From positions 1 to 44,594 of the forward strand of contig NZ_JACMOM010000010.1 in NCBI RefSeq assembly GCF_014378035.1: DNA of 44,594 nt, in the 5' to 3' direction. The notes under the pieces were generated by a model, which did not search any database, was not told the origin of the DNA, and saw nothing but the letters and a program-made list of their open reading frames with translations. This DNA is from Aeromicrobium sp. Its GTDB lineage: Bacteria; Actinomycetota; Actinomycetes; Propionibacteriales; Nocardioidaceae. A program made the translations under genes and the position numbers. Shown one piece after another: positions 5,526 to 43,536 of the stretch (positions are counted from its first letter, which is position 1; every line of letters begins with the position of its first letter).

Positions 5526-5532
5526 GTCTGTC

Positions 5533-5576
5533 ACTCTAAGGTCGCGGCTCGGGCGTGCGCGACCCTGCTCTAGGTT
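5533..5576. promoter_or_regulatory. Divergent leaderless promoters of pepA and gcvT
   Basis: On the minus strand TAGAGT (5538-5533) is followed by 7 nt and the pepA ATG. On the plus strand TAGGTT (5571-5576) is followed by 7 nt and the gcvT ATG. Both fit a sigma-70-type TANNNT -10 with transcription beginning at the A of the start codon. I see no convincing -35 box. Confidence 0.6.
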
Positions 5577-5583
5577 GGCTGGC

Positions 5584-6684
5584 ATGGATCTGCTTCATTC
5601 GCCCATTCACGACCGTCATGTCGCACTGGGTGCGAAGCTCGCGGAGTTCGGTGGTTGGGACATGCCGCTGGAGTACGCCGGCGGGGGTGTCCTTGCCGAG
5701 CACAAGGCGGTCCGCGAGGCCGTCGGCATCTTCGACGTGAGCCACCTCGGCAAGGCCCTCGTGCGGGGATCGGGCGCCGCCGATTTCGTCAACTCGTGCT
5801 TGACCAACGATCTCGGTCGCATCGAGCACGGCAAGGCGCAGTACACCCTCTGCTGCGACGCGGAGGGCGGCACGGTCGACGACATCATCGCGTACCTCCG
5901 TAGCGACTTCGAAGTCTTCCTCATCCCCAATGCCGCCAACTGCGCCGCTGTCGTCGCGCTGCTCCGTGCCGCCGCGCCGGACGGCATCGAGGTCACGGAC
6001 CTGCACCGCGACTACGCCGTGCTCGCCGTGCAGGGTCCGCTGAGCGACGAGGTGCTGCAGTCACTCGGCCTGCCGGTCGACCACGAGTACATGTCCTTTG
6101 CCGACAGCACCGTCGCCGGTCATCACATCACGGTGTGCCGCACCGGCTACACGGGGGAGCGGGGCTACGAGCTCGTCGTCCCGTCAGCCTTCGCGGTCGA
6201 CGTCTGGGACGCGGTCATGATCGCCGGTGAGCCGTTCGGGCTCCGAGCCTGCGGCCTCGGCGCGCGCGACACGCTTCGCACCGAGATGGGTTATGCCTTG
6301 CACGGGCACGAGCTGTCGGCTGAGATCAGCCCGGTCATGGCCAGGACGGGGTGGGCCGTCGGTTGGGACAAGCCGGCCTTCTGGGGCAAGGCCGCCCTGA
6401 CTCGTCAGCGCGAGGAGAAGACAGTGCGCACCCTGCGAGGGCTGCTCGCACAGGGCCGAGGCATCCCGCGTCCCGGCATGCGCGTTCTCGGAGACGACGG
6501 CGCAGAGCTGGGTGAGGTCACCTCCGGAACGTTCTCACCGACCCTGCGTCAGGGCATTGCGCTTGCGCTCCTCGATCGGTCGGTCGAAGATGGCGCGACG
6601 GTTGTTGTCGACGTCAGAGGTCGGTCCGAGGCGTTCACGGTGACGAAACCACCGTTTGTCGTTCCGTCGACGAAGGAGGCTTGA
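5584..6684 (+). CDS. gcvT: Aminomethyltransferase, glycine cleavage T protein
   Basis: 366 aa, normal family length. The enzyme moves the aminomethyl carbon from the lipoylated H protein to tetrahydrofolate, releasing ammonia, in glycine catabolism and one-carbon supply. Family features seen: [25 protein letters not shown] start; the [10 protein letters not shown] segment near 45-55; [10 protein letters not shown] near 185; [14 protein letters not shown] near 235-250, part of the folate pocket; and the C-terminal barrel with [12 protein letters not shown]. The genes for P, H and L proteins are not beside it, as in other actinobacteria. The frame is open further upstream, but the ATG at 5584 has TAGGTT exactly 7 nt before it and matches the family's N-terminus. 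It ends 2 nt before the next small gene, so they form an operon. Confidence 0.93.
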
Positions 6685-6686
6685 GC

Positions 6687-6887
6687 ATGACCTGGACCTG
6701 GAAATTCGAGACCGCGATCGGCGACGAGGTCGGTCGCTCAGAGGTGTTTGAGAGCCGCGGCGACGCGGAGTCATGGGTCGGTGAGACGTTCGGGCAGCTG
6801 GTGGAGGACGGCATCGACCAGGTACGGCTGTTCGACGGCGACACCGAAGTCTACGGACCGATGTCCCTGCACGCCGAGAACAGCTGA
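6687..6887 (+). CDS. Conserved small acidic protein, 66 aa
   Basis: Unrecognised function. It begins MTWTWKFETAIG and contains an alpha/beta pattern with QVRLFDGDTEVYGPMSLH at the end; strongly acidic, no cysteines, no membrane segment. An AGGAGG ribosome site at 6674-6679 lies inside the last codons of gcvT, 7 nt before the ATG at 6687. An in-frame TTG at 6681 is too close to that site. The gene is therefore translated from the gcvT transcript. Codon use looks like its neighbours and the frame is intact, which supports a real gene. Confidence 0.75.
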   Translation: MTWTWKFETAIGDEVGRSEVFESRGDAESWVGETFGQLVEDGIDQVRLFDGDTEVYGPMSLHAENS

Positions 6888-6888
6888 C

Positions 6889-6910
6889 GCGCGGGCAGGA
6901 CGGCCCGCGT
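6889..6910. terminator. Hairpin between convergent genes
   Basis: A 7-bp GC stem (arms 6890-6896 and 6903-6909, loop AGGACG) sits between the stop codons of the 66-aa gene and the DUF3043 gene. It touches both ends and could serve both directions. There is no T-tract, so termination strength is unknown. Confidence 0.45.
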
Positions 6911-7458
6911 CAGTAGCGCTCGGCCAGCGCTTCGCCACGCTTGACCTGCGGCTTCGGCAGCCTGAACCGGCGAAGCTGGGTGCTGCGGAGCACCGAGTAC
7001 CCGACCGAGCCGCGAATCTCATCGGCCTTGAAGCGTGCCGCGAGCTGGCGGCGCAACCCACGCACGAGCACGAACTCGTCGACGATCGTGCCGACGATGA
7101 CGAAGGGGTAGGCGACGAAGGTCGCCGTGACGGACCACGGCTGGTTGGCGCCGACGAATCCGAGCACGACAATGACCAGCAGGAACGGCAGCAGGAACTC
7201 GGCGAAGTTCCAGCGGCGGTCGACGTAGTCGCGGCAGAACTTGCGCACCGGACCCTGCTCACGGGCGGGCAGGTACTTGTCGTCGCCGGTCTTGAGCGCC
7301 TCGCGCTGCTTCTCGCGCACAGTCTCGCGGACGACGCGTTCTCGCTTCGCCTGATCCTTGCGCGAGACGGGCACCTTCATCTGCTTCTTGCGGGCGGCCT
7401 CGGCCTGTTTGCGGCTGGGCGTTGCGCGGCCCTTGCCAGCCTCTGTCTCGTCTACCAC
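6910..7458 (-). CDS. DUF3043 membrane protein
   Basis: 182 aa, recognised as the actinobacteria-specific DUF3043 family of unknown function. Residues 1-60 are highly basic (many KR pairs, RKQAEAARKKQ). A conserved YLPAREQGPVRKFCRDYVD motif is near 60-80. Two or three hydrophobic helices follow (about 90-135), and the C-terminal tail is basic. The GTG at 7458 is used because TAGGGT (7471-7466) ends 7 nt before it. The alternative GTG at 7467 would lie inside that -10 box. Divergent from pspA across 30 nt. Confidence 0.85.
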   Translation of the reverse strand: MVDETEAGKGRATPSRKQAEAARKKQMKVPVSRKDQAKRERVVRETVREKQREALKTGDDKYLPAREQGPVRKFCRDYVDRRWNFAEFLLPFLLVIVVLGFVGANQPWSVTATFVAYPFVIVGTIVDEFVLVRGLRRQLAARFKADEIRGSVGYSVLRSTQLRRFRLPKPQVKRGEALAERY

Positions 7459-7465
7459 CCGCGTC

Positions 7466-7481
7466 ACCCTACCCGTACGCT
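7466..7481. promoter_or_regulatory. Divergent leaderless promoters of DUF3043 and pspA
   Basis: Minus-strand TAGGGT (7471-7466) lies 7 nt from the GTG at 7458, and plus-strand TACGCT (7476-7481) lies 7 nt from the ATG at 7489. The two -10 boxes are 4 bp apart, so polymerase could open only one at a time. The -35 region of each would lie in the other gene. Confidence 0.6.
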
Positions 7482-7488
7482 TGAGGTC

Positions 7489-8238
7489 ATGAGCATCGGG
7501 AAGCGCATGGTCAAGATCTTCACCTCGTGGCGCTCCCGGGGCGACGATGCTGGCGCACTCAAGGACCGGCTCGACGAGACCTACCGCACCCAGACCGCTT
7601 TGCTCCAGCAGGTTCGTCGGGGTGTGGCCGACGTGGTGACGAGCCGCAAGCGTGTCGAGCTCCAGCTCGCTTCGCTCACCGCGCAGACCACACAGCTCGA
7701 CGACGACGCGCGCCAGGCCGTGGCCCGAGGCAACGATGACGAGGCGCGCACCGTGCTCACGCGAAAGGTCACCCTCGAGAAGGCTGCCGCCGATCTCCAG
7801 CAGCGGCACTCCGATCTGAAGGGGGAGGAAGAAAAGTTGCAGATGTCGGCGTTGCGCATCGAGCAGGACGTGGAGAACTTTCGTGTCCGCAAGGACACCC
7901 TCTCGGCTCGACACACTGCCGCCGCTGCCCGGGCGGAGATCAACAGCGCGACGAGCGGCATCAGCTCCTCGGTGAGCGACGTCGGTCAGGCCATGGAGTC
8001 GGCCGAGCGGCGCACCCGCGAGCTCGAGTCCACGGCGGACGCGGTCGACGAGCTCGTCAACGAGGGTGTCATCAGCAAGCCCGGTGAGACCGCCGACGAG
8101 GCGACGAGCCGGCGTTTCGACGTCGCTCTCAACGGTGCTGAGGTCGACCGTCAGCTCGAGGCGATCACCGCGCATCCCGACACGACGGCGCAACCCGACA
8201 GGAAGGACGACCATGGCCCGGACCCGGTTCAAAGGTGA
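7489..8238 (+). CDS. pspA: PspA/IM30 (Vipp1) family envelope-stress protein
   Basis: 249 aa, almost wholly alpha-helical with long heptad-like Ala/Leu/Glu/Gln stretches. The N-terminus MSIGKRMVKIFTSW is the amphipathic membrane-binding helix a of the family. ESCRT-III-like PspA proteins assemble on the inner face of the membrane and limit proton leakage under stress. Two helical hairpin halves are visible (about 25-150 and 155-215). The acidic C-terminal tail (about 215-249) overlaps the start of htpX by 26 nt. The ATG at 7489 follows TACGCT by 7 nt. It is the first gene of a pspA-htpX-pspAB operon; no pspAA gene lies between pspA and htpX. Confidence 0.9.
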   Translation: MSIGKRMVKIFTSWRSRGDDAGALKDRLDETYRTQTALLQQVRRGVADVVTSRKRVELQLASLTAQTTQLDDDARQAVARGNDDEARTVLTRKVTLEKAAADLQQRHSDLKGEEEKLQMSALRIEQDVENFRVRKDTLSARHTAAAARAEINSATSGISSSVSDVGQAMESAERRTRELESTADAVDELVNEGVISKPGETADEATSRRFDVALNGAEVDRQLEAITAHPDTTAQPDRKDDHGPDPVQR

Positions 8239-9112
8239 TCGTGGCCTGACGTTGCGCATGGGCGGCGTCGGGTTCGGACTCGGAGCGCTCTACGTCGCCT
8301 TCGGCGTGTTCCTCTACCAAGGGCTCGGGCTCGGCGCGATCGGTCTGGTCATCGTCCTCGTCATGGCGTGGGGCCAGTGGTACTTCTCGGACACGCTCGC
8401 CCTCAAGTCCATGAGCGCCAAGGTGGTCACCCCCGAGCAGGCGCCAGATCTTCACGCGATGATCGACCGCCTCTGCGCCCTCGCCGACATGCCCAAGCCG
8501 CGCGTGGCCGTCGCCGTCACCGACATGCCCAACGCCTTCGCCACCGGACGCACCCCGAAGCACTCTGCCGTGTGCGTCACGACAGGCATCATGCAGAGGC
8601 TCGACGCCGACGAGCTCGAGGGAGTGCTGGCTCACGAGCTCTCCCACGTCGCCAACCGCGACGTCACGGTGATGACCGTCGCATCGTCGCTAGGGCTCAT
8701 TGCGGGCTTCATCACGCGGTGGGGCATCTACGCCAGCAGCATGTTCGGCGGTCGCAACAACCGCAACAGCGGTGTGGCCTTCTTCGCCGTGTTCGTGGTG
8801 AGCATGGTGGTCTACGCCGTCAGCTTCGTCCTGACCCGCTCGCTCTCGCGCTACCGCGAGCTCAGTGCCGACCGCAGCGGCGCCTATCTGACGGGACGCC
8901 CGTCGAAGCTCTCCTCGGCTCTGGTCAAGATCTCCGGCGACATGGCGCGCATCCCGAACAAAGATCTGCGTGAGGGCCAGGCGATCAGCGCCTTCTTCTT
9001 TGCGCCGGCCATCAACCGTGAGTCGATCGGCGCCCTGTTCTCGACGCACCCGCCGCTCCAGCAGCGCCTCGACCAACTGGCGGCGGTCAGCGCCGAGTTG
9101 TCCGAGCAGTGA
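8213..9112 (+). CDS. htpX: HtpX-type membrane zinc metalloprotease (M48)
   Basis: 299 aa. Two N-terminal membrane helices (about 20-40 and 42-60). HELSH zinc motif at 141-145 with the third ligand in SRYRELSAD (E216). Two more hydrophobic segments at about 153-172 and 187-208. The fold is that of HtpX, a membrane protease for quality control of misfolded membrane proteins. Its ATG lies inside the end of pspA (26-nt overlap) with GGAAGGA upstream, so translation is coupled. HtpX beside PspA is known in actinobacteria, cyanobacteria and archaea, and the context points to membrane repair. Confidence 0.93.
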   Translation: MARTRFKGDRGLTLRMGGVGFGLGALYVAFGVFLYQGLGLGAIGLVIVLVMAWGQWYFSDTLALKSMSAKVVTPEQAPDLHAMIDRLCALADMPKPRVAVAVTDMPNAFATGRTPKHSAVCVTTGIMQRLDADELEGVLAHELSHVANRDVTVMTVASSLGLIAGFITRWGIYASSMFGGRNNRNSGVAFFAVFVVSMVVYAVSFVLTRSLSRYRELSADRSGAYLTGRPSKLSSALVKISGDMARIPNKDLREGQAISAFFFAPAINRESIGALFSTHPPLQQRLDQLAAVSAELSEQ

Positions 9113-9681
9113 TGGGCATCTTCGACTCGATCCTCGGGCGCAGCAAGCCCCCGGAGGCCGACCTCGACGTTCTCTTCGCCGTCCCGCAGGCAGCAATCTC
9201 GCTCCAGGTCGGCGGATTCACCCTCACGGGCTCGGGCTCGGTGTGCTTCAGGGACGTGGAGGGTGGTGCCGACGACTCGGTGCTCGCCGACGCGGAGAAG
9301 CTCATCACCACCACGGCCGGTGCGACGGTGAGCCGTAGCGACGACCGATTCGGATTCCACTGGTTCACCGTGACTCGTACGGATGCCGACGTCTCCGGCC
9401 TGGTGACCGATCTCCATGCGGTCAACAGCTCGCTCGTCGACGCCGGCTTCGGCGCCACCCTGCTGTGCTCGACGATCGGCCTGACCGCGACCGACGGCAA
9501 GCCGCTGGCACTCGTCTACCTCTACAAACGTGGCACCTTCTATCCGTTCGCCCCGCTCGAGGGTGAACGCCGCGACAACGCGCTTGAGCTGCAGGTGCGG
9601 GGGATCGTCGGGGAGGATGTCCCGGTGGAGCCCGATCTCAACCGCTGGCTCGCCATCTGGGGAGCGCCTGGTCTCGGTTGA
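9112..9681 (+). CDS. pspAB: PspA-associated protein PspAB
   Basis: 189 aa, soluble, begins MGIFDSILGRSK. I place it in the PspAB family from its start, its length and its place directly after htpX; family membership is recall, not a search. Pattern is alpha/beta with VYLYKRGTFYPFAP near 140 and a short EPDLNRWLAIWG end. No catalytic motif is seen. The ATG overlaps the htpX stop (TGATG); a GTG three bases earlier is the alternative. Its biochemical role is unknown, but it is thought to work with PspA and HtpX. Confidence 0.75.
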   Translation: MGIFDSILGRSKPPEADLDVLFAVPQAAISLQVGGFTLTGSGSVCFRDVEGGADDSVLADAEKLITTTAGATVSRSDDRFGFHWFTVTRTDADVSGLVTDLHAVNSSLVDAGFGATLLCSTIGLTATDGKPLALVYLYKRGTFYPFAPLEGERRDNALELQVRGIVGEDVPVEPDLNRWLAIWGAPGLG

Positions 9682-9695
9682 CGGTCTCGTCGCGA

Positions 9696-9701
9696 TAGAT
9701 T
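9696..9701 (+). promoter_or_regulatory. -10 box TAGATT of aspC
   Basis: TAGATT ends 6 nt before the GTG at 9708, predicting a leaderless transcript separate from the pspAB operon that ends 26 nt upstream. Confidence 0.55.
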
Positions 9702-9707
9702 GAGCGT

Positions 9708-10979
9708 GTGACGTTCGACGCCCTCTCCCGTGACCAGATGCAGACCCTTCTCGATGAGCAGACTGCGGCGTACCGCCATCTGCAGAATGCGGGTCTTACG
9801 CTCGACCTCACCCGAGGAAAGCCGTCACCGGAGCAGCTTGACCTGTCGACAGACCTGCTGGGCCTACCCGGTGACGACTTCATCGATTCACGCGGCACCG
9901 ACACCCGCAACTACGGCGGGCTCAACGGTCTTCCCGAGCTGCGCGCGATCTTCGCCGAGATCATGCAGGTGCCGGCCGATCAGGTCGTGGCGGGCGGCAA
10001 CGCGAGTCTCGCGATGATGCACGACAACCTGGTGTTCGCGCTCTTCCATGGCGTTCCCGGCTCCGAGCGTCCGTGGGGCCAGGAGGACGCCGTCAAGTTC
10101 ATCTGCCCCGTTCCCGGCTACGACCGTCACTTCGCGCTGCTCGAGGAGTACGGCATCGAGATGATCCCTGTCGCGATGCACGACGACGGACCTGACGTCG
10201 CGGCAGTACGCGAGCTCGTCAAAGATCCCGAGGTCAAGGGCATGTGGCTGGTCCCGACCTATGGCAACCCCACCGGATCGGTCGTCAGCGAGGCAGTCGC
10301 GGCCGAGCTGGCCGCCCTCGAGACCGCCGCCCCTGACTTCCGCATCCTCTGGGACAACGCCTACGCCGTGCACCACCTCACCGACCAGCACACCAAGACC
10401 GCTGACATCCTTGGCCTCTGCGTGGCGTCCGGCCACCCCGACCGGCCGGTCATCTTCGCGTCGACGTCCAAGATCACGCTGGCGGGGTCGGGCGTGTGCT
10501 TCCTGGGAGGTTCGACCGACAACATCAAGTGGTACCTGCGTCACCTCGGCAAACGCACCATCGGCCCCGACAAGGTCAACCACCTGCGGCATGCGCGCTT
10601 CCTGAAGGACGTTGACGGCGTTCACGCCCTGATGGACCGCCATCGCGCGATCCTGGCGCCCAAGTTCGACGCTGTCGCCACTGTCCTGCGCGATCGACTC
10701 GGCTCCCACGACGTTGCCACCTGGACCGAGCCGAGCGGCGGTTACTTCGTCAGCCTCGACGTGGTCGACGGCACTGCGTCCAGAGTCATCGAGCTGGCTG
10801 GCGAGGCCGGTGTCGCCATGACCCCGGCTGGTGCGGCGTTCCCGTACGGCGACGACCCGCGCGACCGCAACATCCGCATAGCACCGACCTACCCCTCCCT
10901 CGACGAGCTCACCGTGGCGATCGACGTGCTCGCCACCTGTGTGCTCGTGGCCGCCGCCGAGCAGTCGCTCGCCACCTGA
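9708..10979 (+). CDS. aspC: Aspartate aminotransferase, Rv3722c (Ic) type
   Basis: 423 aa PLP enzyme of fold type I. Lys255 in STSKITLAG is the expected Schiff-base lysine. N187 (PTYGNPTG), D216 and Y219 (WDNAYAVHH) match cofactor-binding residues. The NYGGLNGLPELR segment near 68-80 is typical of the atypical group that holds M. tuberculosis Rv3722c, the main aspartate aminotransferase there. Such proteins are often misannotated as MocR-like regulators; no winged-helix domain is present here. Reaction: glutamate plus oxaloacetate to aspartate plus 2-oxoglutarate. The GTG at 9708 is backed by TAGATT 6 nt upstream. The glycerate kinase follows 19 nt downstream. Confidence 0.88.
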   Translation: MTFDALSRDQMQTLLDEQTAAYRHLQNAGLTLDLTRGKPSPEQLDLSTDLLGLPGDDFIDSRGTDTRNYGGLNGLPELRAIFAEIMQVPADQVVAGGNASLAMMHDNLVFALFHGVPGSERPWGQEDAVKFICPVPGYDRHFALLEEYGIEMIPVAMHDDGPDVAAVRELVKDPEVKGMWLVPTYGNPTGSVVSEAVAAELAALETAAPDFRILWDNAYAVHHLTDQHTKTADILGLCVASGHPDRPVIFASTSKITLAGSGVCFLGGSTDNIKWYLRHLGKRTIGPDKVNHLRHARFLKDVDGVHALMDRHRAILAPKFDAVATVLRDRLGSHDVATWTEPSGGYFVSLDVVDGTASRVIELAGEAGVAMTPAGAAFPYGDDPRDRNIRIAPTYPSLDELTVAIDVLATCVLVAAAEQSLAT

Positions 10980-10998
10980 TCTGCACGCTCGTGAGCCG

Positions 10999-12114: not shown

Positions 12115-12271
12115 CCGCGTACCATGGAATGGAATCGTCCCGGAGCATGTTGATCGGTGACGATGGCATCGTCCAGGGTTACAGTTCAGAACCATGGTCC
12201 AGGGCAGTGCCAACCGATACGCACCATCTACTTCGTGCACCAGACAGCCAGACCAGACACTGGGAGAACAC

Positions 12272-12640: not shown

Positions 12641-12656
12641 TACGCGTTTGACGGAC

Positions 12657-12690
12657 CGGCCTCCTGCAAAGCGGGAGGCCGTTGTCTATT
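12657..12690 (+). terminator. Rho-independent-like terminator after erpA
   Basis: 8-bp stem (12657-12664 with 12674-12681, GGCCTCC/GGAGGCC core) with a 9-nt loop, followed by GTTGTCTATT. It ends where the adoK -10 box (12687-12692) begins, separating the two units. Confidence 0.6.
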
Positions 12691-12692
12691 CT
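12687..12692 (+). promoter_or_regulatory. -10 box TATTCT of adoK
   Basis: TATTCT is 6 nt before the GTG at 12699, directly after the erpA terminator; predicts a leaderless message. Confidence 0.6.
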
Positions 12693-12698
12693 GTCTGA

Positions 12699-13673: not shown

Positions 13674-13739
13674 TTCATGTCCTCCTGCCACGCACTCAGA
13701 ACAGGTCGCCCTCACCGCACCTGCGCCGAGCTACTGAAG

Positions 13740-13745
13740 TAAGGT
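13740..13745 (+). promoter_or_regulatory. -10 box TAAGGT of ctaC
   Basis: TAAGGT ends 6 nt before the GTG at 13752; would drive the ctaC-ctaD-ctaF operon as a leaderless message. Confidence 0.5.
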
Positions 13746-13751
13746 GAAGTT

Positions 13752-16848: not shown

Positions 16849-16854
16849 TAGAAT
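16849..16854 (+). promoter_or_regulatory. -10 box TAGAAT of the L,D-transpeptidase gene
   Basis: TAGAAT, close to consensus TATAAT, lies 6 nt before the GTG at 16861; one of the clearest leaderless promoters in the window. Confidence 0.65.
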
Positions 16855-21767: not shown

Positions 21768-22406
21768 TCAGCGGATCAGGTAGACGGTGGCGAAGAGGCC
21801 GACCCACACGATATCGACGAAGTGCCAGTAGTACGAGACCACGATCGCGGAGATCGCCTGCTCGTGGGTGAACCTACGCGCGGCAAACGTACGTCCGATG
21901 ACCAGCAGGAAGGCGATCAAACCGCCGACGACGTGGATGCCGTGAAATCCGGTGGCGAGGTAGAACAGGCTGCCATAGGGCGAGCTGGCGATCGTGACGT
22001 TCTCCCGGACGAGCGCGGCGTACTCGGTGGCCTGGCCGCCGATGAATATCGCGCCCATGAGGTAGGTGAGGACGAACCACTCACGCATTCCCCACAACTT
22101 GAACTGAAACAGCTTGCCGCTGCGACCGGGCTTGCCCCGCTCGGCAGCGAACACACCGAACTGACAGGTGACGGAGGAAAGAACCAAGATCGTGGTGTTG
22201 GCGGTCGCGAACGGGATGTTGAGCTTGACCGTCTCGTTGGCCCAGAGCTCGGGGGAGATGTTGCGGACCGTGAAGTAGGCGGCGAACAGCCCCGCGAAGA
22301 ACATCAGCTCGCTGGAGAGCCACACGATCGTGCCAACCGTCACCATCGACGGGCGACCTTCTTGGCCATGGAGTCGGGAAGCAGGAATCACGGATGTAGT
22401 CGCCAC
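21768..22406 (-). CDS. ctaE: Cytochrome c oxidase subunit III
   Basis: 212 aa with five membrane helices, beginning after a short polar head (residues 1-20). Conserved elements: [26 protein letters not shown] near 150-160 and [11 protein letters not shown] near 190, all typical of subunit III, which supports proton uptake of the oxidase. It is separated from ctaCDF and heads the qcr operon, as in mycobacteria. GTG start; CATAAT (22418-22413) lies 6 nt upstream, so it may be leaderless too. Confidence 0.94.
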
Positions 22407-22412
22407 AAGATC

Positions 22413-22424
22413 ATTATGTACGAT
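22413..22424. promoter_or_regulatory. Back-to-back -10 boxes of ctaE and the pseudo-receiver gene
   Basis: Minus-strand CATAAT (22418-22413) ends 6 nt from the ctaE GTG. Plus-strand TACGAT (22419-22424) ends 7 nt from the GTG at 22432. The two boxes touch without a gap, inside a 25-nt intergenic space. Confidence 0.5.
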
Positions 22425-22431
22425 TCACTTC

Positions 22432-22836
22432 GTGAGTGAGCACAAGCCCCTACGTGTCCTGGTCTACAGCGACGATCGTGACGTCCGCGCTGCCGTTCTG
22501 TCAGCGCTCGGAGCTCGGCCCCATCCCGACCTTCCGGCGTTCGAGTATGTCGAGTGCGCCACCGAGCCGGTGGTCTTTCAACACCTTGACGAGGGTGATG
22601 TCGACCTCGTCATCCTCGATGGCGAGGCGGTCCCGGTAGGCGGTATGGGCATTGCCCGTCAGATGAAGGACGAGATCTATCAGGCACCCCCGGTGCTCAT
22701 CCTCACCGGACGTCCGGGCGATGCGTGGCTCGCCACGTGGTCGCGGGCTGAGGCGGCGTTGCCTCACCCGATCGAACCGATTCGCCTGGCCGAGGTCGTC
22801 ATCGACCTTGCACGCGGCGTGCTGCAACCGGGCTGA
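22432..22836 (+). CDS. Single-domain receiver-like protein (pseudo-receiver)
   Basis: 134 aa, one CheY-like alpha/beta domain without output domain. A strand ending in LVILD near 59-63 carries the Asp equivalent to the phosphorylation site, and ILTGRPGD gives the switch Thr. The place where receivers have Lys-Pro reads HPIEP, so the key Lys is replaced. The acidic pair early in the fold appears as YSDDRD. It may therefore not be phosphorylated in the usual way. GTG at 22432 with TACGAT 7 nt upstream; the longer upstream frame would run antisense through ctaE. trpD starts 5 nt downstream, so they are one operon. Function unknown. Confidence 0.7.
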   Translation: MSEHKPLRVLVYSDDRDVRAAVLSALGARPHPDLPAFEYVECATEPVVFQHLDEGDVDLVILDGEAVPVGGMGIARQMKDEIYQAPPVLILTGRPGDAWLATWSRAEAALPHPIEPIRLAEVVIDLARGVLQPG

Positions 22837-26440: not shown

Positions 26441-26518
26441 GGGTCTTTGTGCGTCCGGTGAACGGCGACCTCCAGGTCGGCGTCGGGCGCTCCGTCGAAT
26501 TGTTGCAGGCATGGGGAA

Positions 26519-26629
26519 GATGTCTGGGACGAACCGGGGACCCAATGTGTGTGGGGTGAATCGGACCACGTTCGCGTGGACCGTAGGGCAGACCTTGGCC
26601 CGAATCCGTCAGCTCACCCGGTAGACGTC
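26519..26629 (+). ncRNA. ydaO-yuaA type c-di-AMP riboswitch
   Basis: Conserved blocks of the class appear in order: CCGGGGACCCA at 26534-26544, GGGGTGAATC near 26553-26562, and CCGAATCCGTCAGCTCACC at about 26600-26618, ending in GGTAGACGTC. The outer stem P1 pairs 26519-26525 (GATGTCT) with 26623-26629 (AGACGTC), fully paired with one G-U. The AGGAG ribosome site of the NlpC gene is 9 nt beyond P1. I see no terminator with a U-tract after the aptamer, so control of translation or Rho access is possible. In actinobacteria this class is known to sit before genes for wall hydrolases and resuscitation factors, where c-di-AMP usually turns expression down. Confidence 0.9.
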
Positions 26630-26647
26630 GAGGATGTAGGAGTTTGT

Positions 26648-27634
26648 GTGCCCTTGTTGTCGCGTACCCACGCCCGTCGTCACGGACTTGCCTCCGCTGC
26701 AGCACTCGCCCTGATCGGTAGCCTCTTCGTGCTGCCTTCGGCCGAGGCTGCTCCCGCCATCACTCCCAAGGATGTGGCCGCTGCCTTCCATCAGGCCGAG
26801 GCGCTGAACGAGCAGGTCAACCAGATCACGGTGGATTCCCAGCAGACGCAGAACCAGATCGACGACATCACGGCCGACATCGACCACGACCTCATCGGCT
26901 ACAACCGGCAGAAGTCGGCGCTCGGCAGTGCGATCGTCCAGCAGCAGATGGACGCCCCGCTCGGGCCCACCGTCAAGCTTCTCAGCAGTGACGATCCCGA
27001 GGCCTTCCTTGCTGGCCTCGGCGCCGTGCAGGCACTCAACAGCACCCGGGCCGATGCCCTCGAGCAGTTCGGCCGGTCGAGCAAGGCCCTCAAGAACCGT
27101 CGCGCCCAGTTGCAGGACCGCCAGGACCAGCTCACCGCGGCCAAGAAGGACGCAGCATCCAAGCGCGCAGAGATCCGCGCCAAGTACCAGAAGGCCAAGA
27201 CGCAGCTTGCGCAGCTCACGGCGGCGCAGCAGGCCAAGGTCGACGGGCCCAAGCCCGAGGCCGGGCCCAACATCACGGTCAACGTCAACGCGAGCGGGCG
27301 GGCCAAGATAGCAGTCGACTTCGCCCTCGCACAGCTGGGCGAGCCCTACGTCTACGGTGGCGCCGGTCCCGACAGCTGGGACTGCTCTGGTCTCCTGATG
27401 AAGGCGTGGGCGGCCGCAGGAGTCACGATCCCTCGCGTCGTTGGCCCGCAGATGGCCGCCGCGACGTCGATTCCGATGAGCCAGCTGCAGCCGGGCGACC
27501 ACGTGGCCTACGCAGACATGTCCCACATCGGCATGTACCTCGGCGGCGGCAAGGTCATCCATGCACCTCGACCCGGACGAAACGTCGAAATCACCGGACT
27601 CGACGGCTTCTCCGAGGCCGCCAGGGTTGGCTGA
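26648..27634 (+). CDS. Secreted NlpC/P60 peptidoglycan endopeptidase
   Basis: 328 aa. A basic head and hydrophobic helix form a signal peptide (about 1-34, ending PSAEAA). A long coiled-coil region follows (about 40-200, Gln/Lys/Ala-rich), then an NlpC/P60 domain (about 210-328) with catalytic C246 (WDCSG), H293 (SHIG) and H305 (VIHAP). The domain cuts D-Glu-DAP bonds in stem peptides. The layout equals RipA/Rv2190c-type hydrolases, where the coiled coil restrains the enzyme. The GTG at 26648 has AGGAG at 26638-26642; the open frame further upstream is the riboswitch. The next gene overlaps its end by 8 nt. Confidence 0.92.
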   Translation: MPLLSRTHARRHGLASAAALALIGSLFVLPSAEAAPAITPKDVAAAFHQAEALNEQVNQITVDSQQTQNQIDDITADIDHDLIGYNRQKSALGSAIVQQQMDAPLGPTVKLLSSDDPEAFLAGLGAVQALNSTRADALEQFGRSSKALKNRRAQLQDRQDQLTAAKKDAASKRAEIRAKYQKAKTQLAQLTAAQQAKVDGPKPEAGPNITVNVNASGRAKIAVDFALAQLGEPYVYGGAGPDSWDCSGLLMKAWAAAGVTIPRVVGPQMAAATSIPMSQLQPGDHVAYADMSHIGMYLGGGKVIHAPRPGRNVEITGLDGFSEAARVG

Positions 27635-34693: not shown

Positions 34694-34703
34694 AGAGTAG
34701 TGT
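34694..34703. promoter_or_regulatory. Overlapping divergent -10 boxes of lipase and plsC
   Basis: AGAGTAGTGT reads TAGTGT on the plus strand (34698-34703, 7 nt before the plsC GTG) and TACTCT on the minus strand (34699-34694). The two share the TA at 34698-34699. The plus message is predicted leaderless; the minus one would have a leader of about 55 nt. Confidence 0.5.
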
Positions 34704-34710
34704 CCTGTCC

Positions 34711-35463: not shown

Positions 35464-35507
35464 CCAGCACGACCACCACCGCACGACCACCACAGGAGGA
35501 GGCACGG

Positions 35508-36536: not shown

Positions 36537-36559
36537 GGTGCGACCCCCGCGCATGTCCG

Positions 36560-36565
36560 TAGGCT
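36560..36565 (+). promoter_or_regulatory. -10 box TAGGCT of the DUF427 gene
   Basis: TAGGCT ends 6 nt before the ATG at 36572; predicts a leaderless transcript. Confidence 0.55.
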
Positions 36566-36571
36566 CGAGGC

Positions 36572-37051: not shown

Positions 37052-37136
37052 GGCGCCTGCCTATCGACGGGCCCGGCTTGGGCGTGTCTGTCCCGCCTCG
37101 CTCGGCCTGTGGTCCGGTGTGGACGGAGCACCCGCG

Positions 37137-37142
37137 TATCCT
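37137..37142 (+). promoter_or_regulatory. -10 box TATCCT of aroG
   Basis: TATCCT ends 6 nt before the GTG at 37149; predicts a leaderless aroG message. No attenuator-like structure is seen in the 97-nt gap. Confidence 0.6.
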
Positions 37143-37148
37143 TGGTAG

Positions 37149-38486: not shown

Positions 38487-38491
38487 CCGAC

Positions 38492-38977
38492 GTGCCTCGG
38501 CAACAGCTGACGTACGACGAGGTCGGTGGCACGGCGCTCTCGCCACTTCCGGCGGGGTACCACCACGTCCGTGAATCCCGCTCGCTCGGAGTCGTCGACC
38601 TCGACGACGCCGCGGAGATCCTGCTGACGTGGCAGATGCACTCCCGGGCGGGGGTCCGGCAGGTCGGTGGTGCCCCCCGCGCAACGCTCGACGCCGAGGT
38701 GACCTTCCGCTTCCTCGGTCAGACCATCCCGTGCCGCGTCGTCGAGGTCATCGACGAGCCGCATCGTCGGGGATTCGCCTACGGCACCCTGCAAGGACAT
38801 CCGGAGAGCGGCGAGGAGCGCTTCGTCGTCGAGCGTGATCCGACGACGGCCGAGGTGACGGCGACCATCATCGCGTTCTCGAGGCCAGGCACCTGGCGGA
38901 CCAGGCTGATCGGCCCGGCCGGACGTCTGCTGCAGCGCCGCATGACCCAGCGTTACCTCGTCGCACTGCAGCCCTGA
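38492..38977 (+). CDS. DUF1990 family protein
   Basis: 161 aa. LTYDEVGGT at the start, ALSPLPAGYHHVRESRSLG near 15-33 and a late AFSRPGTWRTRLIGPAGRLLQRRMTQRYL fit the DUF1990 family (SRPBCC-like fold, function unknown). The start is uncertain: GTG at 38492 gives the family-typical short head; a TTG at 38483 would overlap the aroG stop as TTGA. No ribosome site is seen for either, so it is likely translated by coupling from aroG. The last 25 nt overlap the convergent EamA gene. Confidence 0.8.
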   Translation: MPRQQLTYDEVGGTALSPLPAGYHHVRESRSLGVVDLDDAAEILLTWQMHSRAGVRQVGGAPRATLDAEVTFRFLGQTIPCRVVEVIDEPHRRGFAYGTLQGHPESGEERFVVERDPTTAEVTATIIAFSRPGTWRTRLIGPAGRLLQRRMTQRYLVALQP

Positions 38978-39834
38978 CCCACGCGCGTCTCGTGACGTCC
39001 TGAGACTTCGGCCAGCATCATGGCGGCGAGGACCAGCGCGCCACCCACGAGCACCCGCCAACCCAGCAGCTCGCCGCCGAGGACGATCGCGAACGACGCG
39101 GCGAAGACCGGCTCCATCGTCATCAGCAGGGCGGCGCGCGAGGCGTCAATCTGGCCCTGTGCCCAGGTCTGGGCGACCATCGCGAACGCTCCGGCGACGA
39201 GTGCCATGTAGACGACGGCGAGCCAGTCGTCGGTTCGCTGGGGGAGCGACAGGCCCCCGGGCGTGGCGACCAGCAGGCAGAGCAGCGCGATGACACCCAT
39301 CTGGATCGTGGCCATCCCGTACGCATCGCGGGCCGACGACCAGCGGGACAGCAACACGATGTGCACCGCGTAGAGGATCGCGCAGACGAACGTGAGGGCT
39401 TCGCCGAAGCCGACCGTGAGGCCGCGAAGCGACAGGATGCCGAGCCCGACCGTGGCCAGTGCGACCGCGGTCCAGACGGTGCGGGAGATTCGCTGACGGA
39501 AGGCGAGCGACGCGAGGACGGGCGTGGCCACGACGTAGAGACCCGTGATGAAGCCGGACACGCTGGCGTCGGTGTGGCCCAGGCCGATGGTCTGCAGTAT
39601 CTGCGCGACTGCGTAGACGAGACCGGCGTAGACGCTGCGGCGCCGCACGATCGGGTCGAGGCGGACGACGGCCCGCGGCGCCACCGCGAGCATCACGACG
39701 GCCGCCAGCGCGAAGCGCACTGCGAGGAAGTCGGCGGCGGGAAGGCGGTCGAGGAGGTCCTTGATGAGGAAGAACGTCGAACCCCATACCGCGGTCACTG
39801 ATAGGAGCGCCGCTGCGGCAAGTCGGGTGTGCAC
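38953..39834 (-). CDS. EamA/DMT-superfamily permease
   Basis: 293 aa with ten hydrophobic helices in two EamA repeats (about 5-130 and 145-280). Conserved pieces are AVWGSTFFLIK at the start, LRFAL-type AVRFALAAVVM in helix 2, and EPVFAASFAIVLGGELLG in the second repeat. The family exports or imports small metabolites such as amino acids; substrate unknown. GTG at 39834 lies 3 nt after the kinase stop, so the two are one operon and the permease could be linked to the kinase. Its 3' end overlaps the DUF1990 gene. Confidence 0.9.
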   Translation of the reverse strand: MHTRLAAAALLSVTAVWGSTFFLIKDLLDRLPAADFLAVRFALAAVVMLAVAPRAVVRLDPIVRRRSVYAGLVYAVAQILQTIGLGHTDASVSGFITGLYVVATPVLASLAFRQRISRTVWTAVALATVGLGILSLRGLTVGFGEALTFVCAILYAVHIVLLSRWSSARDAYGMATIQMGVIALLCLLVATPGGLSLPQRTDDWLAVVYMALVAGAFAMVAQTWAQGQIDASRAALLMTMEPVFAASFAIVLGGELLGWRVLVGGALVLAAMMLAEVSGRHETRVGQGCSATR

Positions 39835-39837
39835 GGG

Positions 39838-41859
39838 TCAGATGTAGATGACGACGGTGGACCCTCGTGGGGCCTTCTCGTCGCTGTTGGGGGCCTGGAA
39901 CCGGACGGTGTCCGTGATCGGGACGACGTTGCGCACGCTCACCTTGAAGCCCTTGACCCTCAGCGCGCGCGATGCGTTGATGCGGGTCAACCCCATGACG
40001 TCTGGCACGGCGATGCGCTTGGGCCCCTTGGACACCACGAGCGCGATGTCGTCGTTCCTGAATGCCTCGCCACTGGCGGGCGACTGGGAGACGATGGCGC
40101 CCTTGTCGACGTCGTCGCTGAAGGCTTCGGAGGTCGTGACGTCGAAGCCCACGCCCTCGAGGGCGGCGCGTGCCCCCGACGCGTCCTGGCCGGTGTAGTC
40201 GGTGACCTTGATCGGTTGACGACCTCGGCTCAGGTAGAGGTCGATGGCGGTGCCTGGTTTGAGGGCGTTGTCGGTCGTGAAGTCGATGGCACCCAGCACG
40301 AGGTCCTTGTCGACCTTCTCGTCGTACCGCTTCCTCGTGGCGCCAACCTTGAGTCGCACGTCCGTGAGCGAGGCCGTGGCCTCCTTGAGGGTCATGCCCT
40401 CAAGATCCTTGGGGAGCCTGACGCGGTCCTTGCCCCGGGAGATGACGGCGGTGATGACGCCACCCGGAAGGATCTTCTCGCCCGGATCGGGGCTGGTCGA
40501 CATGACAGTGCCCAGTGGTTCGTTCTCAGAGAACCTGCGCTCGTCGACCTTCCAACCGAAGCCATCACCGGCGACGGCGACCTTGGCCTGCGTCTCGGTC
40601 TGGCCGACGAGCCGCGGCGTGTCCGTGTAGCGGCCCACGTTGACGTAGTAGCCGATGCCGAAGGCGATCAGTGCCAGCAGGAGAGCACCGATCAGAAGGT
40701 TGCGGCCGCGGTGGGAACGAGGGTTGTTGGCCTTGTCCCTGCGGTAGTCCTCAGTAGACATGACGGGGTGCAGCCCGGCGGGCCGGTCTGCGGTGTCACT
40801 GAGGACGGACGCGGCTGACCCCGAGGTGACAGGGAGCGAGGACCACTGCATGGTCTCTTCAGGCATGAACACCGATTGCGTGGGCGCGGAGTCGGCGGCG
40901 GTGCCACGGACCGCGGCGCGCGGGACCGACACTGTGGGGGTGGTGTCGTCGTTCTTGGGGCGGGGGCGGGGCATCAGGTCGGCGACGAGATCGGGGTCGT
41001 CGGTGAGGCCCGCGTGGAGCGCCCGCTGGACCGACCGCACCTGCTGGAGCATGACGCGCGCGTCGGTCGAGCGCTGGTCGCGGTCACGGACGGTGGCACG
41101 GGCGACGAGTGCGTCGACGTAGGGCGGGATGCCAGCCTGGATGTCTGACGGAGCGCCGATGTCCTCGTGGACGTGCTTGTAGGCAACCTGGATCGGTGAC
41201 TCACCCGAGTGCGGCTTGAGGCCCGTGAGCATCTCGTAGAGCACCGCGCCGCAGGCGTAGATGTCGGAGCGGGCGTCCGCCCCCTCGTTGACGACGATCT
41301 CGGGCGCGAGGTAGGACACCGTACCGATGAGTGTTCCGCCGGTGGCGGTCGTTGCCGCGCTCACGGCTCGGGCCAGGCCGAAGTCGGCGACCTTGACGTC
41401 GCCGTCGGGGGTGATGAGGACATTCTCGGGCTTGACGTCCCGGTGGATGATCTTGGCGGCATGGGCGGCCGACAGCGCGATCAGGATCTGCTCGAGGAGC
41501 TCGAGCGCGCGGTAGGGAGGCATCGGGGCCTCTTCGCGCATGAGGTCGCGCAGGGTGTGCCCGGGCACGTACTCCATCACGAGGTAGGTGATCTCCCCGT
41601 CCTTGCCCTGATCGAAGACGGAGACGACGTTGCGATGGTTGAGCTTGGCCGCCGACTTCGCCTCGCGGACGAAACGGTTGGTGAACTGCTCGTCGTCGCC
41701 CAGACCGCGGTGCATGACCTTGATGGCCACTTCACGGTCGAGCCGTTGGTCGGTGGCGCGGAAGACGCTTGCCATGCCGCCGCGCGCGATGCGCTGGCCG
41801 ATCAGGTAGCGGTCGTTGAGGACGTGTCCGACCAAGGCTTCATCGCCCATCGATGCCAC
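39838..41859 (-). CDS. pknL: PASTA-domain Ser/Thr protein kinase (PknL/PknB-like)
   Basis: 673 aa. Kinase domain (about 17-275) with ARGGMASVF glycine loop, K47, E66, HRDVKPEN (D141) and DFG (D159). A juxtamembrane Asp/Thr/Pro-rich region (about 285-385) precedes one membrane helix (about 388-408). Four extracytoplasmic PASTA repeats follow (about 410-673), which sense peptidoglycan fragments or lipid II in this family. M. tuberculosis PknL holds the same gene neighbourhood but lacks PASTA repeats, as I recall, so this one is domain-wise nearer PknB. GTG at 41859 has a GGAGGAGG site 5 nt away; ATG 41850 is the alternative. -10 TAGAAT lies at 41910-41905, giving a leader of about 40 nt. Confidence 0.93.
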   Translation of the reverse strand: MASMGDEALVGHVLNDRYLIGQRIARGGMASVFRATDQRLDREVAIKVMHRGLGDDEQFTNRFVREAKSAAKLNHRNVVSVFDQGKDGEITYLVMEYVPGHTLRDLMREEAPMPPYRALELLEQILIALSAAHAAKIIHRDVKPENVLITPDGDVKVADFGLARAVSAATTATGGTLIGTVSYLAPEIVVNEGADARSDIYACGAVLYEMLTGLKPHSGESPIQVAYKHVHEDIGAPSDIQAGIPPYVDALVARATVRDRDQRSTDARVMLQQVRSVQRALHAGLTDDPDLVADLMPRPRPKNDDTTPTVSVPRAAVRGTAADSAPTQSVFMPEETMQWSSLPVTSGSAASVLSDTADRPAGLHPVMSTEDYRRDKANNPRSHRGRNLLIGALLLALIAFGIGYYVNVGRYTDTPRLVGQTETQAKVAVAGDGFGWKVDERRFSENEPLGTVMSTSPDPGEKILPGGVITAVISRGKDRVRLPKDLEGMTLKEATASLTDVRLKVGATRKRYDEKVDKDLVLGAIDFTTDNALKPGTAIDLYLSRGRQPIKVTDYTGQDASGARAALEGVGFDVTTSEAFSDDVDKGAIVSQSPASGEAFRNDDIALVVSKGPKRIAVPDVMGLTRINASRALRVKGFKVSVRNVVPITDTVRFQAPNSDEKAPRGSTVVIYI

Positions 41860-41904
41860 GCCAACCCTCCTCCGACCTTCACGTGTCGCCCCGACCGTGC
41901 CCTG

Positions 41905-41910
41905 ATTCTA
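41905..41910 (-). promoter_or_regulatory. -10 box TAGAAT of pknL
   Basis: TAGAAT on the minus strand, about 45 nt before the GTG and followed by a leader with a strong ribosome site: an example of a leadered gene in this window. Confidence 0.5.
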
Positions 41911-41999
41911 GAGACTCTTCCACACGAGTGAGGCGCTAGCGGTGCGTGTCACGGTCCTGTGGTGATGTTCGCCACGCTCAGATGGGCCACGATGGATCC

Positions 42000-42275
42000 A
42001 TGCGTCGTCACCCCTGGCTGCTGTGCGCGGCAGCGTGCGTGCTCGCACTGCTGGTCGGTCCGCAGCCGGTCGACGACTCCCGGACCTCCTCCGGAAAGGG
42101 ATCCGCGGTGGCCAGCGGGCTAACACGCAAAGCCCGAGAGACAGTGGCAGTCATCGCTAGCGGTGGGCTGGAGCGCTTTGCGTCTCGACTCGACGGACAA
42201 CGTGTCGGTGCAGGACTTCTACGACGTGATCGTCTGTTCGTGGGGCCTGCCCACCTGGTTCGGTCGCAATCTTGA
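42000..42275 (+). pseudogene. Truncated barnase-type ribonuclease (toxin remnant)
   Basis: Starts MRRHPWLLCAAACVLALLVG, a secretion signal, then a Ser/Gly linker and ARETVAVIASGG at about residues 45-56. Actinobacterial barnase/RNase precursors carry a like EAR-T-LI--GG segment just before their catalytic domain. Here the reading runs straight from SGG into the first bases of the barstar gene (42163) instead of the PFPYxxDG, NRE, GYYREYTV, RGxRRIV and YYTxDHYxSF blocks. The frame then continues out of register through barstar to 42275 and has no catalytic residue. It looks like a deletion that removed the whole catalytic domain. Similarity is from memory of the family, so the call needs a search. 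Confidence 0.5.
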
Positions 42276-42477
42276 TGCGCTTTTCGATGCCCTCGGTGAC
42301 CTGACCATGACGCCGACGGTGCTGGTGTGGTCCGGGCTCGGGCAGCTCGCCGACATCGACCCGGAGCTGGCAGGCGCCGTCCTCGACATCTTGCGTGATG
42401 CCGTTGGGCAGGCCCCGGCATTCGCGGTCATCGTTCGCGATGACCTTGGCGTCAGCGGTTTCGACGGGTTGCTGTGA
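42163..42477 (+). CDS. Barstar-family ribonuclease inhibitor
   Basis: 104 aa. The segment LPTWFGRNLDALFDALGDL (about 29-47) is the barstar hallmark helix. D38 and D42 match D35 and D39 of Bacillus barstar, the residues that plug the barnase active site. The rest shows the three-strand alpha/beta pattern with VLVWSG and AFAVIVRDDL. GTG start in the sequence shared with the RNase remnant. It appears complete and intact although its toxin partner is gone. The last 26 nt overlap the convergent prenyl synthase gene. Confidence 0.88.
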   Translation: MGWSALRLDSTDNVSVQDFYDVIVCSWGLPTWFGRNLDALFDALGDLTMTPTVLVWSGLGQLADIDPELAGAVLDILRDAVGQAPAFAVIVRDDLGVSGFDGLL

Positions 42478-43513
42478 GTGCGAGCGGGCCGAGCACGGCG
42501 CGCGCTGTGGAACCGATCTCATCGATCGCCTGATCTGCCTGCCGCTCGAGACGGCTGATGTCGGCCTCGACCGCCGCACGGGCGCCGGACTCTTCGATCA
42601 GTCTTCGGACTGCGTCGACGCCGTCTGGCGTGCCGAGCCCCTCGGCGAGCACAGCGCGGCCCTTGTCGTCGGTCATCTCCGAGGCCCGCGCCACCAGGAC
42701 GGTGCGCTTGCCCTCGCGCAGGTCATCACCCGCGGGTTTGCCGGTGACGGCCGGATCGCCGAAGACACCGAGCATGTCGTCGCGCAGCTGGAAGGCTTCA
42801 CCAAGAGGTAGTGCGACTGCCGAGAGTGCCGACATGAGCTCGGTTCCGGCACCGGCGAGCGCAGCGCCGATGTGCAACGGACGCTCGACGGTGTATTTCG
42901 CTGACTTGTAGCGCACCACCGTCATGGCCTCCGCGACGGAGAGCGACGCTCGGGTCTGGCCGACGACGTCGAGGAACTGACCGGCGACCACCTCTGTCTT
43001 GCAGAGATCGAGGTGATGGCGTCCGGCGACGACGTGACGGACCAGAGACGGCGAACCGAGCACAGAGTTGGTGAACAGCTCATCGCACCACGAGAGCATC
43101 AGGTCACCAAGAAGGACCGCGGTGGATCTGCCGAATCCGGCGGCGTCACCGAGACGGTCCTGATCCTGGTGCAGGGTCTCGAACTGTCGATGGATGCTCG
43201 GGCGGCCCCTGCGCGTGTCGGACCCATCCATGAGGTCGTCATGCACCAGGGCGCTCGCCTGCAGCCATTCGAGGGCGGCGGCGGCGGCCACGATGGCCGG
43301 CTCGTCGGGATCGCCGCCCGCAACGAGCCATCCGGCCTGACAGAACATCGGACGCAGGCACTTGCCCCCACCCACGAACGCGAGGGCGGCGTCGGCGAGC
43401 TCGTCGAGCTCGGGGCCGAGACCGGCCAGCACTGCGCGCTGGCCCTGGACGAACGTCTCGAGAGTGTGACCGATCAGTGACCGGAAATCTGTGTCGTCGG
43501 CGCGTGAGGTCAC
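42452..43513 (-). CDS. idsA: Trans-isoprenyl diphosphate synthase (GGPP synthase type)
   Basis: 353 aa. First Asp-rich motif DDLMDGSD (about 92-99) with RRGRP after it, and second motif LRDDMLGVFGD near 247-257, which bind the diphosphates through magnesium. The KCLRPMF segment near 50 is the isopentenyl diphosphate site. It makes C15-C20 or longer prenyl chains for menaquinone or carotenoids; the phytoene-desaturase-like gene at the right edge favours geranylgeranyl diphosphate. GTG at 43513 with TATCGT 7 nt upstream. Divergent from metF over 23 nt. Confidence 0.92.
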   Translation of the reverse strand: MTSRADDTDFRSLIGHTLETFVQGQRAVLAGLGPELDELADAALAFVGGGKCLRPMFCQAGWLVAGGDPDEPAIVAAAAALEWLQASALVHDDLMDGSDTRRGRPSIHRQFETLHQDQDRLGDAAGFGRSTAVLLGDLMLSWCDELFTNSVLGSPSLVRHVVAGRHHLDLCKTEVVAGQFLDVVGQTRASLSVAEAMTVVRYKSAKYTVERPLHIGAALAGAGTELMSALSAVALPLGEAFQLRDDMLGVFGDPAVTGKPAGDDLREGKRTVLVARASEMTDDKGRAVLAEGLGTPDGVDAVRRLIEESGARAAVEADISRLERQADQAIDEIGSTARAVLGPLALTATRRNR

Positions 43514-43520
43514 AGCCCGG

Positions 43521-43530
43521 ACGATACCGT
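43521..43530. promoter_or_regulatory. Overlapping divergent -10 boxes of idsA and metF
   Basis: ACGATACCGT reads TACCGT on the plus strand (43525-43530, 6 nt before the metF ATG) and TATCGT on the minus strand (43526-43521, 7 nt before the idsA GTG). The boxes share the TA at 43525-43526; both transcripts would be leaderless. Confidence 0.6.
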
Positions 43531-43536
43531 TGGCGC

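Follow-up and report, generated by a model that had tools for sequence, protein, structure and literature searches.

Probable TANNNT promoter boxes at leaderless distance from start codons, some of them common to divergent genes, in an Aeromicrobium genome block

What does it mean that, in one block of an Aeromicrobium genome, a TANNNT box precedes the start codon of gene after gene by 6 or 7 nt? We addressed this question for a stretch of 44,594 nt, hereafter the window, from Aeromicrobium sp. (contig NZ_JACMOM010000010.1, assembly GCF_014378035.1), in which the block 5526..43536 was examined. A preliminary description of this DNA had listed 17 such genes, and all 17 boxes do lie at the coordinates claimed, eight with a 6-nt and nine with a 7-nt spacer before ATG or GTG (Table 1). 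These boxes are very probably -10 elements of the housekeeping (sigma-A) type, from which RNA would start on the ATG or GTG, or one base before it, to give a leaderless mRNA. Sixteen of these genes are likely to be leaderless, DUF427, plsC and the DEDDh nuclease gene with less support than the others. The least ordinary feature of the block had been overlooked: some divergent genes have shared or interlocked boxes.

The spacing itself is sharply defined. In the window, 14 of the 42 called genes have a box at 6 or 7 nt, against an average of 0.4 genes for two adjacent control spacings. The gene caller was blind to the TANNNT motif, and all in-frame ATG and GTG codons near a called start were allowed (mean of 2.5 candidate starts per gene); on its own, it miscalled DUF3043/pspA and picked other starts for ctaC, ldt, the DEDDh nuclease gene, plsC and DUF427. 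Outside the window, TANNNT is present at spacer 6 in 43 and at spacer 7 in 11 of the 320 genes of an own-genome sample (background of 2.1 per spacer), in 40 and 20 of 364 genes in the relative G026 (G and L numbers being our labels for genomes and loci) and in 19 and 13 of 296 genes in G019, with spacers 5 and 8 close to background in all three (0-4 genes). The preliminary description had made its case depend on a genome-wide peak at 6-7 nt, and such a peak is present in the own genome and in two relatives. When boxed open frames with coding character were counted over five Aeromicrobium genomes including the own one (1.5636 Mb), 320 genes were boxed at 6 or 7 nt and 18, 20, 32, 22 and 16 at the control spacings. 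All three fixed bases are required, as indicated by nine single-base variants of TANNNT that occur at 0.75-1.24 times control. These variants had been considered as further leaderless promoters and were dropped for want of a clear general excess, CA...T and GA...T standing at about 1.1 times control.

Conservation between species follows the same spacing. The 17 genes in seven Aeromicrobium relatives make 119 cases, from which 10 were left out (gene absent, truncated or at an edge); in 95 of the remaining 109, TANNNT is kept at 6 or 7 nt before an in-frame start, compared with 0-4 for seven control spacer pairs. Over 71 start-anchored comparisons, agreement with the window is 0.72, 0.72 and 0.76 for the fixed T, A and T, 0.54-0.65 for the unconstrained middle bases, 0.56-0.68 for the four bases directly ahead of the box and 0.24-0.45 at positions 7-24 nt further upstream. 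The contrast of the fixed bases with their nearest neighbours is therefore modest, the fixed-base figures being depressed by shifts between 6- and 7-nt spacers. For gcvT, aspC, adoK, the pseudo-receiver gene, the RAM gene, plsC and aroG, every full alignment shown starts at the boxed codon. For these seven genes, alignment makes it clear that the boxed codon is the true start; for most others, a box that moves along with the start codon speaks for the same, DUF427 (1/3) being less certain and ctaC an exception.

Regarding the mechanism, RNA polymerase would begin either at the first nucleotide of the ATG or GTG or at the nucleotide preceding it, and the resulting mRNA, devoid of a leader, would be translated from its 5'-terminal RTG; the sigma factor, the RNA 5' ends and leaderless translation are what we infer here from the boxes and their spacing. 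Such an organization has precedents, taken here from extracts of the sources. In Actinobacteria, TANNNT lies about 12 bp before the start codons of leaderless genes, which make up on average 19.2 percent of genes (range 2.3-29.8) (PMC3160421). In Mycobacterium tuberculosis, 26 percent of the genes with a primary start are leaderless and have no -35 consensus, and RNA starts prefer C at -1 (PMC3898074). In M. smegmatis, an RTG at +1 is necessary and sufficient for leaderless translation (PMC4633059), and leaderless genes occur in P. acnes too (PMC3848588). The Aeromicrobium genes resemble these, as far as the extracts go, in the distance of TANNNT, the ATG and GTG starts, the lack of a -35 consensus and their being a minority of genes (PMC3160421, PMC3898074). 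Indeed, no position upstream of the box exceeds 0.07 bits in 146 boxed sites, so that no -35 consensus is discerned. Immediately ahead of the start codon, a pyrimidine is found at 119/146 boxed and 496/794 other starts (pooled, P 5e-6). No report of leaderless genes in Aeromicrobium was found in the open-licence literature searched, where both terms occur together in a single paper, a review on Streptomyces.

When leaderless genes stand back to back, their two -10 boxes meet, and in some pairs they would use the same base pairs. A screen of the window and of stretches sampled from 17 genomes, for divergent pairs boxed at 6 or 7 nt on both sides and at most 150 nt apart, returned 65 pairs that group into 42 orthologous clusters; five control spacer pairs returned none. 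In five of the clusters the starts are 18-24 nt apart, and all five are of the shared-base kind, two with TANNNTA and three with ANNNTANNNT; no other cluster has a gap of 24 nt or less. A peak of gaps at 18 and 23 was considered but not upheld, five being few. In the window, the start codons of idsA and metF are 23 nt apart and the two boxes have TA 43525-43526 in common. The four shared-base pairs outside the window encode a peptidase M13 and a siderophore-interacting protein, a PEBP and a SpoU methylase, an MmpL and a MarR protein, and a TetR and an MFS protein, all eight with Pfam families. We also observed that the MmpL/MarR and TetR/MFS pairs (L176:8574-8598 and L193:13351-13375), with their common -10 base pairs, join a regulator to a transporter, and these would compete for one promoter core.

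The PEBP/SpoU and idsA/metF pairs could be followed across species. For PEBP/SpoU, 48/49 genomes were matched and 30 loci cut (L242-L271), 27 of them divergent. TANNNTA lies between the starts in 25/27, including the locus of the window's own genome (L257 = G000:C364), with a gap of 18 in 23 loci, 17 in one and 21 in one, where a CAT is also found at 18. The other two divergent loci have separate boxes and gaps of 36 and 85, and three loci without PEBP still have the box before SpoU. For idsA/metF, the core ANNNTANNNT is present in 19/19 loci (L051-L069), 18 of which were retained by the first filter and L061 by a wider one, chosen once its sequence had been inspected. The metF protein is nearest to Aeromicrobium (L051-L068 at 72-89 percent identity, among the best 80 of at least 547 loci encoding a relative), and the remaining 62 of the best 80 loci are mostly Nocardioides or Nocardioidaceae. 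In these other Nocardioidaceae, 52 doubly boxed idsA/metF pairs were recovered from 62 loci (a locus may count twice), with gaps of 23-116 nt, 50/52 of at least 30.

We consider it reasonably probable, as a reading of these sequences, that Aeromicrobium uses symmetric -10 elements of 7-10 bp as two-headed leaderless promoters, each directing, from a single set of base pairs, the transcription of two divergent mRNAs that begin at their respective start codons. One symmetric element would then serve both genes, its remaining promoter contacts lying inside the coding sequence of the partner, and the two genes would compete for polymerase. Since leaderless transcription would seat the symmetry of the -10 element on the start codons, the intergenic length would be fixed at about 18 or 23-24 nt; since both genes would be leaderless, the promoter core would be the whole intergenic region. 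The arrangement would be under selection, because it is kept while surrounding bases change and because genes that have moved apart each keep a box of their own.

In bidirectional promoters, the two divergent -10 elements can have base pairs in common. An extract of PMC12825309 describes such promoters as pseudo-symmetric, with RNA starts preferably 18 and 23 bp apart (10 bp being frequent as well), and states that polymerases are unable to occupy them in both orientations simultaneously. The idsA/metF pair is similar in that two divergent -10 boxes have base pairs in common and, with 6-nt spacers, TANNNTA leads to 18 and ANNNTANNNT to 23, as in the published classes; with spacers of 6 and 7, RNA starts at the codons are predicted 24 bp apart for idsA/metF and 19 bp apart for PEBP/SpoU, against classes of 18 and 23 in which small variations are allowed (PMC12825309). 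Unlike in the promoters described in that extract, both genes would be leaderless, and it is from sequence that we infer two-way activity and mutual exclusion of polymerases. Another precedent is prpD/Rv1129c of M. tuberculosis, divergent neighbours that, like the Aeromicrobium pairs, both have leaderless mRNAs; unlike for idsA/metF, the extract describing them makes no mention of shared -10 base pairs (PMC3898074). In the open-licence literature, two leaderless genes sharing one -10 are not described in the titles and abstract beginnings among the matches listed.

Could a regulator rather use the idsA/metF core as its operator? Conservation of the core ACGATACCGT goes further than TANNNT needs (free positions C 18/19, G 19/19 and C 19/19). 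An operator in place of a shared -10 is nevertheless improbable, as the start codons hold a gap of 22-24 nt in 17 Aeromicrobium pairs, the same pair in other Nocardioidaceae usually has two separate TANNNT boxes at 6 or 7 nt, a search of the window and 363.6 kb of the own genome returns the palindrome a single time, and the PEBP/SpoU core keeps its TA and TA with variable middle bases. Both roles could coexist at idsA/metF, and a regulator might bind this core. As an observation on its own, the conservation of 43521-43530 extends to the positions that TANNNT leaves free, and in some species the core is a perfect palindrome.

Returning to the leaderless reading of the individual boxes, three further explanations deserve attention. 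The boxes could be real promoters of leadered mRNAs, with the true starts further downstream or with stronger promoters upstream. Such is the situation that ctaC fits, having a conserved ribosome site and a start 39 nt downstream, and plsC looks leadered in 3/7 relatives; for pepA, DUF3043, ldt, the DEDDh nuclease gene, fadD and metF, many alignments of relatives start a few residues past the boxed codon. As a general account it is very unlikely, given the seven genes whose full alignments all begin at the boxed codon, a box that travels with the start codon where N-termini differ in length (95/109) and a sharp 6-7 nt spacing that is not expected with starts elsewhere. Leaders could instead be very short (1-5 nt), above all at 7-nt spacers, and be translated by a different route, an explanation that gains from the existence of two spacings, since an RNA start at fixed distance would fall on the codon in one case and one base earlier in the other. 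Transcription initiation, however, normally moves by a base or so to reach a purine, and spacers 5 and 8 are near background; we regard very short leaders as unlikely. Lastly, TANNNT has only three fixed bases and each gene offers several candidate starts, so that chance combined with a free choice of start codons might be invoked, but controls granted equal freedom give 1-2 percent of genes and 0-4/109 orthologue checks, and practically no room is left for it. The chance figure of the preliminary description, 3 percent each, was in fact generous, and its conclusion that the boxes exceed chance stands.

Several observations weigh against the leaderless reading and its two-headed extension. As ctaC illustrates, a gene may have a box 6 nt ahead of an in-frame RTG without being leaderless, and the box is less conserved in DUF427, plsC and the DEDDh nuclease gene (Table 1). 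Gene calling was crude, and the draft genome has 7 percent contamination; in G019, the caller-based excess reaches only 10 percent of genes, and only 7 percent among divergent heads. The pyrimidine excess at -1 is not significant in the own genome (41/54 vs 159/250, P 0.11), and position -2 differs too between boxed and other starts. Without the coding filter, one control divergent pair (gap 0) turns up, and G020 departs from the 6/7 rule with a spacer of 8 on the idsA side. Finally, the mutual exclusion of box and Shine-Dalgarno sequence was dropped as evidence since it is geometrically forced: a Shine-Dalgarno is found in 0/120 boxed heads and 110/480 others, but the box leaves no room for one. 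Likewise, the absence of the box from genes with clear ribosome sites, remarked on earlier, is nearly inevitable for a box at -12 to -7.

Table 1. Candidate -10 boxes, start codons and other features of the window, with the presence of each box among Aeromicrobium orthologues (nt, nucleotides).
Feature	Strand	-10 box	Spacer (nt)	Start codon	Box in orthologues; remarks
pepA (M17 aminopeptidase)	-	TAGAGT 5538-5533	7	ATG 5525	5/6
gcvT	+	TAGGTT 5571-5576	7	ATG 5584	6/6; divergent from pepA, starts 58 nt apart
DUF3043 gene	-	TAGGGT 7471-7466	7	GTG 7458	7/7; divergent from pspA, 30 nt between starts, boxes 4 nt apart
pspA	+	TACGCT 7476-7481	7	ATG 7489	7/7
aspC	+	TAGATT at 9696	6	GTG 9708	7/7
adoK (PfkB kinase)	+	TATTCT at 12687	6	GTG 12699	7/7
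ctaC	+	TAAGGT 13740-13745			1/6 at 6 or 7 nt of an in-frame start; feature to 13793
ldt (L,D-transpeptidase)	+	TAGAAT at 16849	6	GTG 16861	7/7
ctaE (COX3)	-	CATAAT 22418-22413 (-10-like)	6	GTG 22406	25 nt from divergent pseudo-receiver start
Pseudo-receiver gene	+	TACGAT at 22419	7	GTG 22432	7/7
RAM (Lrp/AsnC ligand-binding domain) gene	-	TAGGCT 24290-24285	6	GTG 24278	5/5
DEDDh/GIY-YIG nuclease gene	-	TAGCGT 26004-25999	7	GTG 25991	4/6; spacer 8 in L145
c-di-AMP riboswitch	+				26493..26634; RF00379, 61 bits; upstream of gene called at 26648, a leadered neighbour
fadD	-	TAACCT 30638-30633	7	GTG 30625	7/7
plsC	+	TAGTGT at 34698	7	GTG 34711	4/7
DUF427 gene	+	TAGGCT at 36560	6	ATG 36572	1/3
aroG (class II DAHP synthase)	+	TATCCT at 37137	6	GTG 37149	7/7
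idsA (polyprenyl synthase)	-	TATCGT 43526-43521	7	GTG 43513	6/7
metF	+	TACCGT 43525-43530	6	ATG 43537	7/7

Among individual genes, ctaC had been listed as leaderless at its box, which is probably not the case. The sequence AGAAAGGCGC(C/T)(C/T)CGTGGGTCGG is present in the window and 7/7 orthologues, and so is an AGAAAGG site ahead of GTG 13791, a codon that opens a lipoprotein-like signal. At the position of 13752, an RTG is found in 3/7 orthologues (L132, L138 and L150), and 2/7 (L141 and L146) have an in-frame TGA between this position and the later GTG. The ctaC mRNA is thus probably leadered, with an RNA start at about 13752, a leader of about 39 nt and translation from GTG 13791, and its TAAGGT may be a real promoter box. 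An extended form of the protein may also be made in the strain of the window, by analogy with M. smegmatis, since an RTG at +1 suffices there.

Conversely, the list had missed ctaE, which is probably leaderless from its GTG. Its upstream sequence, GTACATAAT-N6-GTG, recurs in the window and 7/7 orthologues; CATAAT stands 6 nt before the GTG in 8/8 sequences and the N-terminus VATTS is common to all eight. At 6 or 7 nt before starts, CATAAT occurs in 0 genes of the five-genome sample (1.5636 Mb). Because it shows no excess elsewhere, the ctaE box is a weaker case, an exception for which conservation is the sole argument. We also observed that, between ctaE and the pseudo-receiver gene (22406-22434), CATTATGTACGAT is present in 8/8 sequences, which is more than two -10 boxes require. 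A leaderless respiration gene such as ctaE, predicted here, would set the block apart from M. tuberculosis, where the respiration class is described, in the extract of PMC3898074, as almost without leaderless mRNAs.

In plsC, the start is at the same position throughout (TTG in L139), with the box at leaderless distance in the window, G026, G029, G018 and G006 and, in G014, G019 and G020, a box further upstream together with an AGGAG-type site. The gene thus appears leaderless in five and led by a ribosome site in three sequences of one genus (L139, L145 and L149); in L139, a box lies near an out-of-frame GTG.

How common is this arrangement? To call leaderless transcription the rule, as had been done, is too strong. 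The TANNNT excess amounts to 19.1 genes per 100 kb over the five Aeromicrobium genomes and 16.4 in the own-genome sample (16-19 genes per 100 kb), which, set against about 0.9 called genes per kb, would correspond to about one gene in five. Measured with the gene caller, the excess amounts to 16 percent of the genes for the own sample (divergent heads 27 percent, codirectional heads 19 percent, internal genes 7 percent) and to 15 percent for G026. With a share close to the published actinobacterial mean, the genome is ordinary and the window locally dense. Indeed, the high density claimed for the block is borne out, 17 genes being found where 9.1 are expected, about 1.9 times the density of 80 other stretches (Poisson P 0.012, for a window chosen after the fact), 5 percent of which reach its rate; at about twice the density of its own genome, the block differs from other leaderless sets. 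The surroundings of the syntenic block in seven relatives hold 7.2 boxed genes per 20 kb (20 stretches, range 2-10) vs 4.1 elsewhere. The earlier estimate of about 29 transcription-unit heads was also fair, the caller giving 27 (16 divergent and 11 codirectional). A class-wide comparison covered 118 of 295 genome rows, picked for high counts plus examples, and TANNNT-N6-ATG only (ATG, spacing 6). Among these picked rows, Aeromicrobium has a mean excess of 64.8 per Mb (11 genomes, 42.6-76.5, G000 lowest), genus g60 of family f32 comes near with 64.3 (9 genomes), g102 lies above with 69.1 (one genome), and the highest single genome is G189 of g60 with 84.3.

The gene names used in the preliminary description agree with the Pfam matches of the window proteins: M17 peptidase, GcvT, DUF3043, PspA, aspartate aminotransferase, PfkB kinase, COX2, L,D-transpeptidase, Lrp/AsnC domain, exonuclease with GIY-YIG, AMP-binding enzyme, acyltransferase, DUF427, class II DAHP synthase, polyprenyl synthase and MTHFR, the pseudo-receiver protein having a Response_reg match under the Pfam cut-off. 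The draft of the own genome (G000) comprises 400 contigs totalling 4.23 Mb, with a completeness of 90.5 percent and a contamination of 7 percent. The composition of 20 of its stretches is compatible with the window (r 0.84-0.98). Contamination as the origin of the spacing peak was ruled out, the peak being present in two relatives too. Separately, the control-pattern count is 150 in G000 and 21-83 in ten other Aeromicrobium genomes, and with its contamination the draft may be mixed.

Backed by controls and by conservation between species, these results extend leaderless expression to a genus on which we found no such report, and the start codons of ctaC and ctaE could be misannotated. The apparent switch of plsC between leaderless and leadered forms within one genus is relevant to the way in which such genes pass from one type to the other. 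While leaderless genes are already known in the phylum, a symmetric box apparently common to back-to-back genes is less expected. The shared-box pairs are a natural test bed, as one base change should hit two genes at once, and the loci in which each gene has its own box (L267 and L269 in the case of PEBP/SpoU, many Nocardioides in that of idsA/metF) offer matched controls for a coupling of the two genes through polymerase competition.

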